Assembly (NCBI RefSeq): GCF_000613185.1
Contig: NZ_CCBB010000001.1
Location: forward strand, 2,852,001 to 2,916,000
Origin: Mycolicibacterium cosmeticum
GTDB taxonomy: Bacteria > Actinomycetota > Actinomycetes > Mycobacteriales > Mycobacteriaceae
Length of the DNA: 64,000 nucleotides
Direction of reading: 5' to 3'
Shown here: positions 1-64,000 of the stretch, one piece after another
Layout: each line of letters opens with the position of its first letter
Numbering within the stretch: the stretch's first letter is position 1
The notes under the pieces: generated by a model
Databases searched by the model: none
What the model saw: only the letters and a program-made list of their open reading frames with translations
What the model was told of the DNA's origin: nothing
Translations under genes and position numbers: made by a program

Positions 1-695
1 AGATCGCCCACGTTGCTGTTCAGCTTGCTCCACACGCCCATACCGCCGAGCACCAGGTAGAGGAACGCCACGGCGATCATCCAGACGAAGAACAGCGCGG
101 CCGAGAGCACCAGCGACACCTTCAGCGTGCTCCACGGATCGATGCGTCGGATCTGCATGCTGGCCCGCACCGGACCTTGCTTACGGTTGGCCACCTGCAC
201 CCGCCCGGGCGGGGGAGCGGGCCGGGATTCGGCCGCCGTGGCCCGGGCCGGCCGCGGCGGCGGTCCGGACAGGTCCGGCAGCTCGCTGGCGTAGTTCTCC
301 GGCCGTGCGGCCTCCGGCCGCTCGGTGCGGGTGGGCAACACCTCGGTTTCGCGCGGCGGGTTCTGCGGAGGACCGGCAGGCGTCTCCCGGGCCGGTGCGT
401 TACCCCCGGCGATGAACCGGTTGAGCCTGGCGTCCACCCCCTGGGGGTGCGCCGGCCGGGTCCCGCCGTCGGCGGGACGGGCGCCTTCCGCCGGCCGGCC
501 GGCAATCGACGCTTCCGCCGGCCTACCGGCATTCGACCCTTCCGCCGGCCTACCGGTGTTGGCCCGGGCCGCCGGTCCGCGCTGCCACGGGGGCACTTCA
601 CCCTCGGGTACGGCACCCGGCGTCCCGGCGGCGCCGTTTGCGCTGCCGGGGCCCTCGCTTGCCCGCGAGTGGCCGGGTTCCTTCGGTGACGTCAC
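1..695 (-). CDS. DUF3566 membrane protein, 3' end cut by window (Rv0007-like)
   Basis: The start is GTG at 695, with AAGGAG 8 nt upstream. The visible 231 codons give a long Pro/Ala/Arg-rich cytoplasmic region followed by a transmembrane helix ([20 protein letters not shown]) and the Leu/Gly-rich segment typical of DUF3566. The linker holds a 9-residue repeat (GRPAEG units) made by a 27-nt tandem DNA repeat near 485-565. In mycobacteria this gene follows gyrA; its function is unknown, and the family has a disordered N-terminus and a two-helix C-terminal domain. The C-terminus lies beyond base 1. The gene is 75 bp downstream of gyrA on the same strand, so it could be co-transcribed with the gyrase genes. 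The family call rests on the membrane segment and the position. Confidence 0.85.
485..565. repeat. 27-nt tandem repeat inside the DUF3566 gene, about 3 copies
   Basis: The 8-mer CTTCCGCC recurs at 485, 512 and 539, a 27-nt period. The units encode nine-residue repeats of the form xAGRPAExS in the disordered N-terminal region of the minus-strand protein. The period is a multiple of three, so copy changes would keep the frame. Confidence 0.8.
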
Positions 696-770: not shown

Positions 771-3335
771 CTACGCGTCGGTCGACTCGTCGCCTGCGGC
801 CTGATCGCCTTCCACGTCGACAACTTCGGCCTCACCGGCTTCCGCTTCGACAGCTTCGGCCTCGTCGGATTCCTCCGCGTTGTGTGCGATGGCAATCAGT
901 GTGTCGCCCTCACCGAGGTTCATCAAGCGCACGCCCTTGGTCTGCCTGCCGGCCTTGCGCACCTGACGCGCCGCCGTGCGGATCACCCCGCCGCCGGAGG
1001 TGATGGCGTACAACTCGGTGTCGTCGTCGACGATCAGCGCACCCACCAGGCTGCCGCGGCGCCGGTCGTACTGGATGGTCAAGATGCCCTTACCGCCGCG
1101 GCCCTGCACCGTGTACTCCTCGATATCGGTGCGCTTGGCGTATCCGCCGGCGGTGGCGACCAGCAGGTAGGTGCCCTCACGGACCACGTTGAGCGACAGC
1201 AGCCGGTCGTCCTCGTTGAACCGCATGCCCTGCACACCCGAGGTGGCGCGACCCATCGGCCGCAGCGCCTCGTCGGTGGCCGAGAACCGGATGGACTGCC
1301 CGTTGGCCGAGACCAGCAGCAGATCGTCCTCGGCCGAGCACAGCACGGCACCGACCAGTTCGTCGCCTTCGCGCAGGTTGATGGCGACGATGCCGCCGGA
1401 GCGGTTCGAGTCGAAGTCGATCAGCTTCGACTTCTTCACCAGACCGTTGCGGGTGGCCAGCACCAGGTAGGGCGCATCCTCGTAGCTCTTGATCTGGATG
1501 ACCTGGGCGATGCGTTCCTCGGGCTGGAAGGCCAGCAGGTTGGCCACGTGCTGGCCACGGGCCGTGCGCGACGCCTCCGGCAGGTCGTAGGCCTTGGCCC
1601 GGTACACCCGGCCCTGCGTGGTGAAGAACAGGATCCAGTCGTGCGTCGAGCACACGAAGAAGTGGTTGACGATGTCGTCCTGCTTGAGACCCGCGCCCTG
1701 CACACCCTTACCGCCGCGCTTCTGGCTGCGGTACAGGTCGGTCTTGGTGCGCTTGGCATAGCCCGTCTCGGTGATGGTGACGACGACGTCCTCGCGCTGG
1801 ATGAGGTCCTCGTCGGTGACGTCACCGTCCGCGGCGATGATCCGGGTGCGACGTTCGTCACCGTGCTTCTCGACGATCTCCTTGAGCTCGTCACGCACGA
1901 TGGCGCGCTGGCGCTCCGGCTTGGCCAGGATGTCCTCGAGGTCGGCGATCTCGGCCTCGATCTTGGCCAGGTCGTCGACGATGCGCTGCCGTTCCAGGGC
2001 GGCCAGCCGGCGCAGCTGCATGTCGAGGATGGCTTGGGCCTGGATCTCGTCGACGTCGAGCAGCTCCATCAAGCCGCTGCGGGCGACGTCGGCGTTGGCC
2101 GACGCCCGGATCAACGCGATCACCTCGTCGAGGGCATCCAGCGCCTTGACCAGACCGCGCAGGATGTGGGCGCGTTCGTTGGCCTTGCGCAGCCGGTACC
2201 GGGTGCGCCGGATGATCACATCGAGTTGGTGCGCAACGTAGTACCGGATCATCTGGTCTAGCCGCAGGGTGCGCGGCACGCCGTCGACGATGGACAGCAT
2301 GTTGGCACCGAAGCTGGTCTGCAGCTGGGTGTGCTTGTAGAGGTTGTTCAGCACGACCTTGGCCACGGCGTCGCGCTTGAGCTCCACCACGATGCGCAGA
2401 CCCACGCGGTCGCTGGACTGGTCCTCGATATTGGAGATGCCGGTCAGCTTGGCGTCGCGGACCTGCTCGGCGATCGAGGTGATGAAGTTGTCGTGGTTGA
2501 CCTGGTAGGGCAGCTCGGTGATGACGATCGAGGTGCGCCCGCGCGAGTCCTCCTCGATCTCGACCACACCGCGCATCCGGATCGATCCGCGTCCCGTGGT
2601 GTAGGTGTCGTTGATGCCCTGGGTGCCGACGATCAGGCCGCTGGTGGGGAAGTCGGGGCCCTTGACCCGCTCGCAGACCGCGGCCAGGGTGGCCTCTTCG
2701 TCGGCCTCGTGGTTCTCCAGGCACCAGTACACGGCCTCGGCGAGCTCGTTGAGGTTGTGCGGCGGGATGTTGGTGGCCATCCCGACGGCGATACCGCCGG
2801 ATCCGTTGGCCAGCAGGTTGGGGAACCGGCTGGGCAGAACCGTCGGCTCCTGCACGCGGCCGTCGTAGTTCGGGATGAAATCGACTGTCTCCTCGTCGAT
2901 CTCGCGCAGCATCTCCATGGCCAGCGGCGTCAGCCTGGCCTCGGTGTACCGCATGGCGGCGGCCGGGTCGTTGCCCGGTGAGCCGAAGTTGCCCTGACCG
3001 TCGACCAGCGGGTAGCGCAGCGACCACGGCTGGGCCATCCGGACCAGGGTGTCGTAGATCGACGCGTCGCCGTGCGGGTGGTAGTTACCCATCGTCTCGG
3101 CCACCGAGCGCGCCGATTTGGCGTGGCTGCGGTCCGGCCGGAACCCGGAGTCGTACATGGCGTACAGCACCCGCCGGTGCACCGGCTTGAGACCGTCGCG
3201 CACCTCGGGCAGCGCGCGGCCGACGATCACGCTCATCGCGTAATCGATGTAGCTGCGCTGCATCTCGTGCTGGATGTCGACCGGTTCGATGCGATCGGAC
3301 GTGCCGTCGCCGGGGGGCAACGTGGTGTCAGTCAT
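771..3335 (-). CDS. gyrA: DNA gyrase subunit A
   Basis: GyrA is the DNA-cleaving subunit of the A2B2 gyrase that adds negative supercoils; it is cytoplasmic and acts with GyrB. It is 854 aa, slightly longer than the usual ~840. The catalytic tyrosine is Y130 in [10 protein letters not shown]. The quinolone region reads HGDASIYD with A91, S92 and D95. Ala in place of the enterobacterial Ser83 is the normal mycobacterial state, linked to lower intrinsic quinolone susceptibility, and no classical resistance change is visible. Two GyrA-box-like motifs occur in the C-terminal beta-pinwheel: QKRGGKG (538-544) and QGRGGKG (744-750). The last ~35 residues are very acidic. There is no intein at the Y130 site used in some mycobacteria. 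The gene is 25 bp downstream of gyrB, so one operon is likely. Confidence 0.98.
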
Positions 3336-59958: not shown

Positions 59959-60125
59959 TCTTCATCAACAGGGCCGGTTGCACCCGGCTCAGCTACCACT
60001 AGTGTTGGCCGTCGCGACGCAATGGAGCTGACTCCGATCGGACTTGTCGGTGGGGTCTCTTACTGTCACGGCAGCTGTTCTCGAACACGCGTTCGGTGCT
60101 TGAAACGAAGGGGGAGGGACGCTTA

Positions 60126-61505
60126 GTGGCTGTCGTGGACGACCTCGGTCATCACGGTGTGGACGAGCCGCCCAGTGAGGATTTCGGGCGCCAGCCACCC
60201 CAGGACATGGCGGCCGAGCAGGCGGTGCTGGGCGGCATGATGCTCAGCAAGGACGCCATCGCGGACGTCCTGGAGCGCATGCAGCCCGGCGACTTCTACC
60301 GGCCCGCCCACCAAGACGTCGCGATGGTCATCCTGGATCTCTACGACCGCGGGGAGCCCGCCGACGCGGTGACCGTGGCGGCCGAGCTGGACCGGCGCGG
60401 CCAGCTGCGCCGGGTCGGTGGTGCGCCATATCTGCACACCCTGATCTCCACCGTGCCCACCGCGGCCAACGCCGGGTTCTACGCCGGGATCGTGGCCGAG
60501 AAGGCACTGCTGCGTCGGCTGGTCGAGGCCGGCACCCGGGTGGTGCAGTACGGGTACGCGGGAGCCGACGGCGCCGATGTGCACGACATCGTGGACCGGG
60601 CCCAGGCCGAGATCTACGACGTCACCGACAAGCGGCGCCAGTCCGAGGATTTCGTCCCGCTCGAGGATCTGCTGCAGCCCACCATGGACGAGATCGACGC
60701 GATCGCCTCGCAGGGCGGCATCTCCCGTGGCGTGCCGACCGGGTTCATCGACCTCGACGAGGTGACCAATGGGCTGCATGCCGGGCAGATGATCATCGTC
60801 GCGGCGAGGCCTGGTGTTGGGAAATCGACTCTGGGACTAGATTTTATGCGGTCCTGCTCCATCAAGCACCGGATGGCCAGCGTCATCTTCTCGCTGGAAA
60901 TGAGCAAGTCCGAGATCGTGATGCGGCTGCTGTCGGCCGAGGCCAACATCAAGCTCGGAGACATGCGCTCCGGCCGGATGAACGATGACGACTGGACCCG
61001 GCTCGCCCGCCGTATGAGCGAGATCAGCGAGGCGCCGCTGTACATCGACGACTCGCCCAACCTGACCATGATGGAAATCCGGGCCAAGGCCCGGCGGCTG
61101 AAGAAGAAGGCAGACCTGCAGCTCATCGTCGTGGACTACATGCAGCTGATGACCTCGGGCAAGAAGTACGAGTCGCGTCAGCAGGAGGTGTCGGACTTTT
61201 CCCGAAGCCTCAAGCTGATGGCCAAGGAACTCGATGTCCCCGTGGTGGCGATCAGTCAGCTCAACCGTGGTCCCGAACAGCGCACCGACAAGCGGCCCCA
61301 GGTGTCGGATCTTCGCGAGTCGGGTTCACTCGAGCAGGACGCCGACATGGTCATCCTGTTGCACCGCCCCGACGCGATCGACCGTGACGATCCGCGCGGC
61401 GGTGAGGCCGACCTGATCCTGGGCAAGCACCGTAACGGGCCCACCGCGAATATCACTGTGGCGCACCAGCTGCACCTGTCGCGGTTCACGAATATGGCGC
61501 GGTAG
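60126..61505 (+). CDS. dnaB: Replicative DNA helicase DnaB, intein-free
   Basis: DnaB is the hexameric 5'-3' helicase of the replication fork. The protein is 459 aa from GTG at 60126 (VAVVDDLGHHGVDEPPSEDFGRQPPQDMAAEQ), matching relatives. It has the N-terminal primase-contact domain, the RecA-like domain with Walker A RPGVGKST (Lys at residue 233), the DYMQLM Walker B region, SQLNRGPEQRTDKRPQVSDLRESGSLEQDAD (motif H4) and the C-terminal arginine finger area. No intein interrupts either known mycobacterial insertion point. The P-loop codons (60807-60845) are strikingly unlike the rest of the gene. Its partner DciA is at 5593-6132. Confidence 0.97.
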   Translation: MAVVDDLGHHGVDEPPSEDFGRQPPQDMAAEQAVLGGMMLSKDAIADVLERMQPGDFYRPAHQDVAMVILDLYDRGEPADAVTVAAELDRRGQLRRVGGAPYLHTLISTVPTAANAGFYAGIVAEKALLRRLVEAGTRVVQYGYAGADGADVHDIVDRAQAEIYDVTDKRRQSEDFVPLEDLLQPTMDEIDAIASQGGISRGVPTGFIDLDEVTNGLHAGQMIIVAARPGVGKSTLGLDFMRSCSIKHRMASVIFSLEMSKSEIVMRLLSAEANIKLGDMRSGRMNDDDWTRLARRMSEISEAPLYIDDSPNLTMMEIRAKARRLKKKADLQLIVVDYMQLMTSGKKYESRQQEVSDFSRSLKLMAKELDVPVVAISQLNRGPEQRTDKRPQVSDLRESGSLEQDADMVILLHRPDAIDRDDPRGGEADLILGKHRNGPTANITVAHQLHLSRFTNMAR

Positions 61506-61594: not shown

Positions 61595-61638
61595 CCGCCA
61601 GGCAGCACTTGCGGTGAGAGTAGGAAGTGCAAATCAAT

Positions 61639-62454
61639 ATGAGCCGTCCTCCTGTAAGCGCAGATATCGCTGCACGGTTTGGGCAGCTGTATAAGGGAGG
61701 CATCGACAGGCCCACACACCCGCAACTTTCAGCAGTGTTTAGGAGGTACGGCTTTGAAGACGTTGCGCCGTACGACCATTCGCAAGCAGGCCCGAACAAG
61801 GAGTTACGGGTGCGTAAGGTGCTCGAAGCGGTCGTTAGGAGGCCCCGGCACGCGCGCCCGATCATCGATGCCTTGCTGGTCGACCTCCGAGCACTTGGGT
61901 GCTTTACAAACGGAATCATTGAGCAAGATGTGATTTCAAGAGTTGCCGCGGCGTTCGCGACTCAAGGGTATGAGCTGACCGCCGAGGGTGAGCTCCGTCG
62001 ACTGGGCGCAGTGGACCTATCGACCGGCGGCAGGCTGGCGCTCGATGAACAACTGGAGAGGTTGCTACGTGCAGAGGACGACCCCGCCCTTGCTATTGGC
62101 TCCGCCAAAGATCTTCTGGAGGCGATAGCGAAGTTCGTCCTCGACGAGCTGGATTGGCCGCACAGCGAAAAGGATGACTTCAGCAAGCTTTGGTACTTCG
62201 CGCGTGAGCGTCTGGGTCTTTTACCCCAGAACGTGGCGGCGGGGCCTGCGCAAGCTGAAATACGTGCAGTTCTCCAATCATCGTGGACTATCGCTTCGAA
62301 GGTAAACGAACTGCGCAACGACCATGGGACTGGCCATGGGCGGACGCTCCCGACCGGCATCACGCCGGAGATTGCTCAAATGGTCGTCCGTGAGGCCTGC
62401 AGCGTAGGCGAGCTGGCGCTCACCACACTCGATCGCCAGGTCGGTCGCCGGTAG
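61639..62454 (+). CDS. Abortive infection protein with HEPN-type Abi_C domain
   Basis: The protein is 271 aa from ATG at 61639; a GTG at 61627 is an alternative. The C-terminal ~115 residues fit Abi_C: LLEAIAKFVLDEL, KLWYFARERLGL, AEIRAVLQSSWTIASKVNELRNDHGTGHGR, then a helix at the end. RNDHGTGH (226-233) fits the HEPN R-x(4-6)-H ribonuclease signature, so a growth-arresting RNase is likely (inference). The N-terminal ~130 residues are not recognised. Base composition is lower in G+C than the core (34 of 60 in one sampled line, 61681-61740), a sign of transfer. Confidence 0.8.
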   Translation: MSRPPVSADIAARFGQLYKGGIDRPTHPQLSAVFRRYGFEDVAPYDHSQAGPNKELRVRKVLEAVVRRPRHARPIIDALLVDLRALGCFTNGIIEQDVISRVAAAFATQGYELTAEGELRRLGAVDLSTGGRLALDEQLERLLRAEDDPALAIGSAKDLLEAIAKFVLDELDWPHSEKDDFSKLWYFARERLGLLPQNVAAGPAQAEIRAVLQSSWTIASKVNELRNDHGTGHGRTLPTGITPEIAQMVVREACSVGELALTTLDRQVGRR

Positions 62455-62872
62455 TGGCGCCGGGTTTCGACTCGGTCAGGTCCAGTCACGTGGTGAACGA
62501 CATCGCTATGGGAACTTCGAGAGCGATGCTATTGGTTGCCAGGCGAGATGACGGCTCGATCGTGTTCTGGACGTTCCCAAGGCTGCATGCCCTACACGCC
62601 AGCTTCGGCATTTCGGCGTAACTTCTCTGCACCGAGCCGGGCTGCTCGGTCTCCAAATAACCGGCACATTGCGAGCGTGACTCACCAGCCAGGTGAGCCG
62701 ACCAGCCGTAGTGCTCCTAGCTCCGTCTTCGGTGGCGCACAACGCTTGGTCGGAACAAGCAGCACCGACGCAAAACCGAGGTGCGTGCTGGCCCGCCACT
62801 CATTCATTGTCGGCTGCCGGGGCTAATCTAATCGATCACGGGTCGTGGGGTCGGTTGCGGGAGGTTGGGCGG
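62455..62872. other. 418-bp gap with no supported gene
   Basis: Short open frames exist on both strands but their translations are rich in Arg, Ser, Cys and Trp with no domain pattern and no ribosome binding sites. The stretch may be decayed accessory DNA or carry the promoter of the next gene. I saw no tRNA, clear hairpin or repeat. Confidence 0.5.
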
Positions 62873-64000
62873 GTGCTGGGTTACCGTACGTTCTTCAACG
62901 TCGAGCGTCAGAGCCAACTGATCGGTCTTGTCGAGGGTCAGCTCCACTCCTGGATGAAGACCAAGGGTTGGAGCTACGACAATCTGGTCGAGGGCACCGT
63001 CGTCGACGTTGCCCGCGATACGCGTTGCGCGATACTCGGCGAGCAACTCCAAGACGGCTCCCGTACGCGACGTTTCCGGTTTCTACAGGACGGCCAGGGC
63101 GGTAAGTGGATCACCGAGCTGACCTATTACCAGAGCCGCAACGACGACGGCTGGGTATGGCTTGAGATCGAGCAGCCGGAAGGAACTCGCCGGGCCGGCA
63201 CGCCGCGGCTAGCCAAGATGCTCGTTGAGGTGCTGGCGGTGCGGGACGGTGACAATACGCTGACTCCCCAACCGATGCCGACGGGTGCCTCGGAGGTCGA
63301 CGACGTCATCGCCGCCGTGACCGATCCCAACCGCCGCGGGCTGCTGTTTGTTTCTGGGTCGAGCGACTCTGATATCCCGCTAGTGCAGTGGAACGGGTTC
63401 GTTTCCGGGATCCTGCGGGAGACCGTGGGTCTGAGTTCGGCATATCTGCTCGACCCCGAAGCGACCGAAGCGTTCAACAGCCGAATTTCCGAATCGCACA
63501 GGGTGAGCCCTTACACGGTCCGTACGTACCGTCCTCAAGTTCAACTCGATGAGCAGCTGGACTCTGAGCGGCACCGGATCCTGACGACCAACGCGATCAT
63601 CAAGGATGATCCGCGGTGGCTGCAGCGTCTGCTGGGAAACCGAGCACGTGAGACTGCGATCAGCACCTCGCTGCCCTCGCCGGCGCACCGGGTGGACCGC
63701 CGCCTGCGCGACGCATTAGATATCCTGCTACTCGACCGCACCAGCTCGGCTACCGCTGAGAAGCTGGTGGACTTGCCGGAGGCAGCACAGCAGCCCGCGG
63801 TCACAGCCAGCCCGGACCATGTCACCAGCGTTCTGCAGTTGATGCTGCGGCAGCTGCTCGGCAATGACGCAGTGACGGACGATTCGTTGCGCCGCCTCGG
63901 CCAGCTGGCTTTGGACGGAAAGGTGGCACGGCAGGCAAGTGACGACGCCCGCCAGCGACTTGCCACTCTGGAGAACCAGGTCGACTCGGGCGCGGCTGCG
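62873..64000 (+). CDS. Large unknown protein, 3' end beyond window; possible defense component
   Basis: The frame is open from GTG at 62873 (GGGAGG 8 nt upstream) to the window end, 376 codons with no stop. Nothing was recognised with confidence. Residues ~1-125 read as a compact alpha/beta region (LGYRTFFNVERQSQLIGLV, GGKWITELTYYQS, GWVWLEIEQPEG, TPRLAKMLVEVLAVRDGD). About 140-235 look like an alternating strand-helix fold (LLFVSGSSDSDIPLVQWNGFVSGIL, SSAYLLDPEATEAFNSRI, VRTYRPQVQLDEQLDSERHRIL). Predicted helices follow, with a probable coiled-coil or linker near the end. Position after an Abi_C gene suggests a phage-defense locus. That is context, not sequence proof. Confidence 0.75.
   Translation, partial: MLGYRTFFNVERQSQLIGLVEGQLHSWMKTKGWSYDNLVEGTVVDVARDTRCAILGEQLQDGSRTRRFRFLQDGQGGKWITELTYYQSRNDDGWVWLEIEQPEGTRRAGTPRLAKMLVEVLAVRDGDNTLTPQPMPTGASEVDDVIAAVTDPNRRGLLFVSGSSDSDIPLVQWNGFVSGILRETVGLSSAYLLDPEATEAFNSRISESHRVSPYTVRTYRPQVQLDEQLDSERHRILTTNAIIKDDPRWLQRLLGNRARETAISTSLPSPAHRVDRRLRDALDILLLDRTSSATAEKLVDLPEAAQQPAVTASPDHVTSVLQLMLRQLLGNDAVTDDSLRRLGQLALDGKVARQASDDARQRLATLENQVDSGAAA

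Follow-up and report, generated by a model that had tools for sequence, protein, structure and literature searches.

The question raised by this locus is why a replicative DNA helicase gene without an intein carries, over its ATPase P-loop, a short run of codons that are rare in its genome. In the stretch of 64,000 nucleotides analysed here (referred to as the window), dnaB was located at 60096..61505 on the + strand from the ORF list, a genome search and Pfam, which placed the DnaB domain at residues 33-135 and the DnaB_C domain at residues 212-466 of the product; the GTG at 60126 is perhaps the true start. A single full-length dnaB match was found in the 6.46 Mb genome, and the nearest dnaB among named records is that of Mycobacterium aurum (91%). 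ORF reading and the genome search showed that the gene is intact and that both of its intein sites are empty. The P-loop junction, positioned from the inserts of 58 relatives, lies at 60824..60825 (+ strand), between K243 (AAA, 60822-60824) and S244 (TCG, 60825-60827), while the H4 site region covers codons 403-415 (61302..61340, + strand), with its junction, G410|S411, at 61325/61326. A search of the genome with one long P-loop intein as query, run without a positive control, returned no relative of that intein. Two ORFs lie just 3' of dnaB (61627-62454 and 62693-64000).

Codon scoring and the ORF coordinates placed the recoded tract, RPGVGKSTLGLDF, at 60807..60845 on the + strand, corresponding to dnaB codons 238-250 and exactly where the sequence-only reading had located it. 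Codon frequencies were calculated within synonymous families from 294 ORFs (~317 kb) called in the window and in 20 further 20-kb stretches. Ten of the 13 tract codons are minority synonyms that leave the amino acids unchanged, namely, in order, AGG (0.032), CCT (0.020), GGT (0.177), GTT (0.032), AAA (0.154), ACT (0.016), GGA (0.075), CTA (0.008), GAT (0.202) and TTT (0.030), with GGG, TCG and CTG in the fifth, seventh and ninth positions. All ten had been named as rare from the sequence alone, and GGT, AAA and GAT proved to be just moderately so. Sliding-window scoring ranked the tract as the lowest of the 457 13-codon windows of dnaB (score -22.4, z -8.7), and the codons immediately flanking it were ordinary, as had been claimed.

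Nine of 89,385 sampled genome windows score as low, i.e. the tract itself and eight overlapping windows in one ORF (locus L140), a rank that rules out ordinary codon noise as the origin of the tract. The ORF in L140 was rejected as a rival coding dip, since its eight windows sit in a false extension, upstream of the apparent start of a gene that, from a reading of its sequence, appears to be aldehyde-dehydrogenase-like. A general Walker A effect in the source genome was also ruled out, as the motif G.{4}GK[ST], matched 18 times in coding-like frames, gave ordinary scores (lowest -5.6, median +1.7). The H4 site region of the source genome deviates only mildly.

The sequence-only reading had named the P-loop and H4 as the intein sites of mycobacterial DnaB, and they are those of M. 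smegmatis DnaBi1 and DnaBi2; in the passages of PMC6195587 at hand, DnaBi1 and the M. leprae intein are inserted in the P-loop (site b) with Ser as +1 residue, H4 being the other site. To place the source allele among its relatives, dnaB matches were obtained in at least 195 of the 198 genus genomes searched, and 59 loci with a match broken at the P-loop were fetched among the matches listed. In all 58 loci that could be parsed, flanking motifs placed an in-frame insert at the K243|S244 junction. By length alone, 28 of these inserts were classed as long (879-1251 nt) and 30 as short (414-435 nt). The seven P-loop inserts that were read all begin with AL.LDTPLPTP and end with THN; Pfam reported a LAGLIDADG domain in the one long P-loop intein scanned and no match in the one short P-loop intein scanned. 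The P-loop is empty in 71 parsed alleles, including the source allele, and nine of the 71 have an H4 insert. The allele set compared below comprises 129 alleles, with L335-L341, fetched later, outside it and seven loci without a parsable motif omitted. Among the latter is L045 (the dnaB of genome G045), of which the C-terminal part lies in an open frame of just 237 codons and the P-loop insert could not be parsed; this dnaB may be frameshifted. In one genus with large genomes (g72, possibly Streptomyces), a P-loop break was observed in one of ten genomes.

The dnaB tract is an empty homing site of the P-loop DnaB intein family, in the same gene and at the same junction as in the relatives. It shares this junction and the Ser at +1 with the mycobacterial P-loop inteins described in parts of PMC6195587, and differs in being empty and synonymously anomalous; those passages do not treat the codons of empty sites. 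In the open-licence PMC literature, covered mostly through titles and the openings of abstracts, no report of altered codons at empty intein sites was noticed.

Two origins had been suggested from the sequence alone, the first being that the tract is co-converted extein sequence left after precise intein loss. In a dnaB tree built without both intein sites and rooted at the midpoint, the source allele is the earliest branch of a seven-member clade (support 99/99), with M. aurum inside; five of these alleles carry an intein, and the source allele and M. aurum are empty. A tree without M. aurum gave the same placement. The existence of intein-bearing clade mates, and the AGG CCT often present on the left in long-intein alleles, would suit a scar of their own intein with its co-converted flank. 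However, the tract flanks of the five mates are mostly GC-ending, with AAG|TC at the junction, and the source differs from all five in 10-11 of the 13 tract codons (other comparable codons, 0.305-0.330; p 1.2e-4 to 1.4e-3, in pairwise tests with overlapping taxa and an assumption of codon independence), so that the tract is not the flank left by a precise loss of their intein. Likewise, K243 is AAA in the source and in 42/71 intein-free alleles, compared with 4/28 long-intein and 3/30 short-intein alleles, AAG being found in 24/28 and 27/30 of the latter two groups, respectively. The scar is thus largely refuted, and we regard it as highly improbable.

Alignment of the tract, as had been proposed, showed its nearest relatives to be intein-free alleles: the distant L109 (3 nt; one of 12 tract codons), the distant L120 and L336 (4 nt each) and, within the clade, M. 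aurum (4/13 codons); the plasmid copy L271 is 6 nt away, and the tract of the long-intein allele L043 is just 5 nt away. The proximity to distant empty alleles and to a plasmid copy is consistent with a replacement, whereby an ancestral intein would have been lost when an intein-free dnaB from a plasmid or a distant species converted a short stretch and so introduced ~39 bp of foreign sequence. The distribution of inteins in the clade is compatible with such an event, as is the linkage of tract codons in intein-free alleles, where the upstream and downstream halves of the tract correlate (rho 0.48, p 2e-5, no tree correction) in a manner not due to gene-wide AT3 (rho -0.08). On the other hand, the edges of the patch would have to fall at near-identical positions in many lineages, and the outer flanks follow the intein-bearing mates, with which the source codons match just outside the tract. 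Moreover, none of the alleles examined, second dnaB copies included, had the identical tract, and the unusual codons of the donor tracts would be left unexplained. Replacement is therefore considered unlikely. A viral source of the tract was rejected, as a degenerate form of the 39-mer had no exact match in viral contigs; one phage record matched at 68.6%.

Comparison across alleles tied the recoding to intein sites. In 61 intein-free mycobacterial dnaB genes (source excluded), the windows with the most AT-ending codons were 238-250 (0.366), at the P-loop intein site, and 403-415 (0.344), at the H4 intein site, against a mean of 0.154. The deviant span extends from R238 to F250 around 243|244, and from about 403 to 421 around 410|411; the P-loop recoding spans ~39 bp, with the insertion point at its centre. 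With the baseline taken from the codon usage of the group itself, intein-free alleles had a P-loop deviation (z) of -4.5, long-intein alleles -3.8, short-intein alleles -0.8 and a Streptomyces-dominated group -1.1 (z 1.6 by AT-ending codons). Long-intein alleles retain the dip except at K243, and short-intein alleles are without it at the P-loop. The sequence-only reading had held that the same odd codons in all intein-free relatives would speak against its proposals; similar codons were observed in many of them, but not in all.

The suggested link to an intein site stands in that the recoding is centred on the junction and recurs at H4, and is weakened by a further run of rare codons, the third in dnaB and seen across the genus, at codons 369-381 (61200-61238 in the window; SRSLKLMAKELDV). 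By a codon-frequency score, this region dips whatever the intein state (free -0.44, long -0.44, short -0.31), the same score in free alleles being -0.49 for the tract and -0.34 for H4. To our knowledge, no intein occurs at 369-381, and hence not every dnaB dip is an intein site. The dip shows that dnaB can carry such features for other reasons, which makes escape from homing less likely and a functional nucleotide element more likely; dependence on intein state is what singles out the P-loop from it.

Such an element would belong to the uninterrupted P-loop and could be a run of slow codons that aids folding, a signal in the mRNA or DNA, or an internal start codon (M251) preceded by GGA. Intein insertion would disrupt it, after which the flanks would relax to preferred codons, to a greater extent behind old short inteins. 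The graded dip from free through long-intein to short-intein alleles is in line with this, as are the 369-381 dip and the recurrence of particular codons in unrelated lineages, even at L302, where the P-loop codons are odd despite a flank with 2% AT-ending codons. Yet synonymous turnover in the tract is high: its synonymous divergence is 1.6-1.9x the gene average in intein-free and 1.5-1.8x in long-intein alleles (1.3-1.4x in short-intein alleles, 1.3-1.5x in the Streptomyces group). In 36 close intein-free pairs it reaches 0.39, versus 0.20 in the rest of the gene, and in intein-free alleles it tracks the divergence of the whole gene only weakly (0.07, compared with 0.24 for the median window). 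Furthermore, other Walker A motifs in the source genome are normal, and chance would have to account for H4, where a further dip has an intein junction at its centre.

The taxonomic distribution also argues against a functional element. In a survey of Actinomycetes, from which ten loci without a parsable motif were omitted, a tract-minus-flank AT3 above 0.2 was observed in 7/8 Nocardia/Rhodococcus-type, 5/19 Pseudonocardiales-type and 2/31 Streptomyces alleles, and in 5/20 order-level and 6/21 class-level alleles. The dip was shown to be sporadic within genera (L168/L172 in Saccharothrix, L171/L174 in Saccharopolyspora). Overall, a functional element is judged rather unlikely. Three class-level Actinomycetes (L302, L316 and L325) have codons such as AGA, AAA, ACT, GGA and CTA at the P-loop within flanking dnaB sequence of 2-15% AT-ending codons.

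The second suggestion made from the sequence alone, synonymous recoding that would resist a homing endonuclease, is partly supported and appears to fit most of the evidence. We give somewhat less than an even chance to synonymous recoding of the empty homing site, with escape from homing as its most likely cause. Inteins with a LAGLIDADG endonuclease would spread among these bacteria by cutting and converting empty dnaB alleles, and many synonymous changes over the recognition footprint would create a poor target, allowing empty alleles to persist. Since the P-loop amino acids are nearly fixed, such persistence would come about mainly through synonymous changes in the footprint, either because the drive itself selects for them or because the alleles that have them are the ones to survive. 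Transfer of short segments between empty alleles, carrying a site that is already recoded, may add to the spread. Short inteins probably lack an endonuclease; behind them the pressure would be absent and the flank codons ordinary. A deviation that is centred on both junctions, strongest in the empty P-loop and absent behind short inteins points to a product of homing. Over the likely footprint, the source tract differs from the joined flanks of its intein-bearing clade mates, and escape from cutting, together with short conversion, is best read as the most economical of the homing explanations.

Parts of the literature on homing provide a frame for this proposal. In the portions of PMC3229294 available, the homing model includes empty (X') alleles with lower susceptibility to homing, an altered target to which the tract may be likened. 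Inteins are argued there to be hard to escape, sitting in motifs with unchangeable amino acids, and X' escape is argued to be costly to the host, as the motif is conserved; synonymous recoding would, in contrast, keep the protein unchanged. Homing enzymes are reported to tolerate single synonymous changes (PMC3024317, in part), and one cleaved a natural target despite several differences, most of them synonymous (PMC10643990, in part), so that escape would require numerous simultaneous changes, as present in the tract. Target-site resistance alleles of engineered gene drives, as far as the sources at hand describe them, are likewise function-preserving target variants, whereas the dnaB tract is natural and bacterial, involves many codons at once and is only putatively resistant.

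Several observations weigh against escape. Long-intein alleles share much of the recoding and the raised tract divergence: mean 39-nt distances are similar for free-long (9.08), free-free (8.92) and long-long (8.53) comparisons, and AGG and CCT are commoner in long-intein than in free alleles. The same codons also seem to recur too specifically for random escape, and the Streptomyces group and short-intein alleles, which serve as controls, are lower yet not flat. Tree-corrected tests were mixed. For AAA at K243, independent tree pairs gave 0 versus 7.2 for long-intein against free alleles (median p 0.016, range 0.002-0.125), with a median p of 0.38 for short against free and 0.070 for any P-loop intein; GGA at 247 gave a median p of 0.0215 against P-loop intein state. 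Neither AGG/AGA nor CCT was associated with intein state after tree correction (median p 0.69 and 1, respectively), and the corresponding p values for an AT-rich tract were 0.22 (short versus free), 1 (long versus free) and 0.0625 (short versus long). H4 occupancy was not associated with an AT-rich H4 region (tree-corrected p 0.69).

Other intein sites served as controls. In the source genome, gyrA (774..3335, - strand) is empty at its intein site, which we take to be Y130|T131, as fits the break at residues 128-130 seen in at least 39 of 96 genus genomes with a match; codon scoring showed that it is not recoded. The empty gyrA sites of 29 relatives were not recoded as a window either (window 0.132, mean 0.109, rank 227/785), which weighs against escape, as does the 369-381 dip, which appears regardless of intein state. 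Among these relatives, R129 is AGG/AGA in 8/29 and T136 is ACT/ACA in 13/29, and window 140-152, ten codons downstream of the site, ranks second in the gene. Recoding at other intein sites is present at dnaB H4 and absent at gyrA in 29 relatives. In the source genome, recA was not recoded over 963 matched bases; in sufB, the lowest window scored -4.3 in 1344 matched bases, and as its insertion point was not located, sufB was left out as a parallel case.

Homing could also have shaped the site without any resistance, if the recoded form is old and shared and an arriving intein overwrites ~20 bp on each side with donor flank, making occupied alleles look ordinary. The two empty clade alleles do share most of the recoded form (4/13 codons differ), and the five occupied alleles are without it, their outer flanks agreeing. 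Nevertheless, intein distance was hardly a better predictor of flank distance than of other windows (0.17 for long inteins; other windows mean 0.10, maximum 0.28), i.e. there was no clear signal of flanks following the intein's own phylogeny, and the odd codons of the empty state would be left unexplained. This explanation is held to be quite improbable.

Returning to escape from homing, it is possible, if somewhat doubtful, that genomes and plasmids carry a natural homing-immune dnaB, with the whole footprint recoded synonymously and evolved or swapped under long endonuclease attack. If true, synonymous immunity at no protein cost would change models of homing cycles and natural gene drives, and the codon-usage footprint would represent a sequence-only signature of gene-drive pressure.

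Mycobacterial plasmids carry their own dnaB, in some cases with a P-loop insert (L267-L269, L349 and L350). Of 109 plasmid records with a match, 13 were sampled (L334 and L337 being omitted as misparsed). Twelve distinct empty second copies, 76-81% identical to the chromosomal protein, were compared (L270, L271, L328, L329, L331-L333, L343, L344 and L346-L348), eight from plasmid records and four from genome contigs taken as plasmids. Their top AT3 windows, 239-251 and 399-411, fall at the same two sites. Changes of plasmid-type DnaB at chromosomally invariant residues showed no excess at the two sites (0.053 versus 0.078 elsewhere), which weighs against escape. V241 is replaced (by Q, H, L, S or A) in 11/12 empty and 0/5 occupied second copies (p 0.001, no tree correction), a contrast that speaks for escape, as do the H4 residues described next.

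Intein splicing requires Ser, Thr or Cys as the +1 residue. At H4, the +1 Ser is replaced by Gln, Ala or Asn in 9/12 empty second copies, and given this chemistry such sites would not support an intein; among chromosomal alleles, 14 of the 102 with an empty H4 have Ala at +1, and all 26 with an occupied H4 have Ser. A comparable dichotomy between invaded and uninvaded alleles is reported in part of PMC10643990 for the haloarchaeal MCM-d intein site, where the residue just after the junction is Ser in invaded and mainly Pro in uninvaded alleles. The MCM-d difference concerns an amino acid, whereas that at the P-loop is synonymous, and the closer parallel to MCM-d is the H4 +1 position, with Ala in chromosomes and Gln, Ala or Asn in second dnaB copies.
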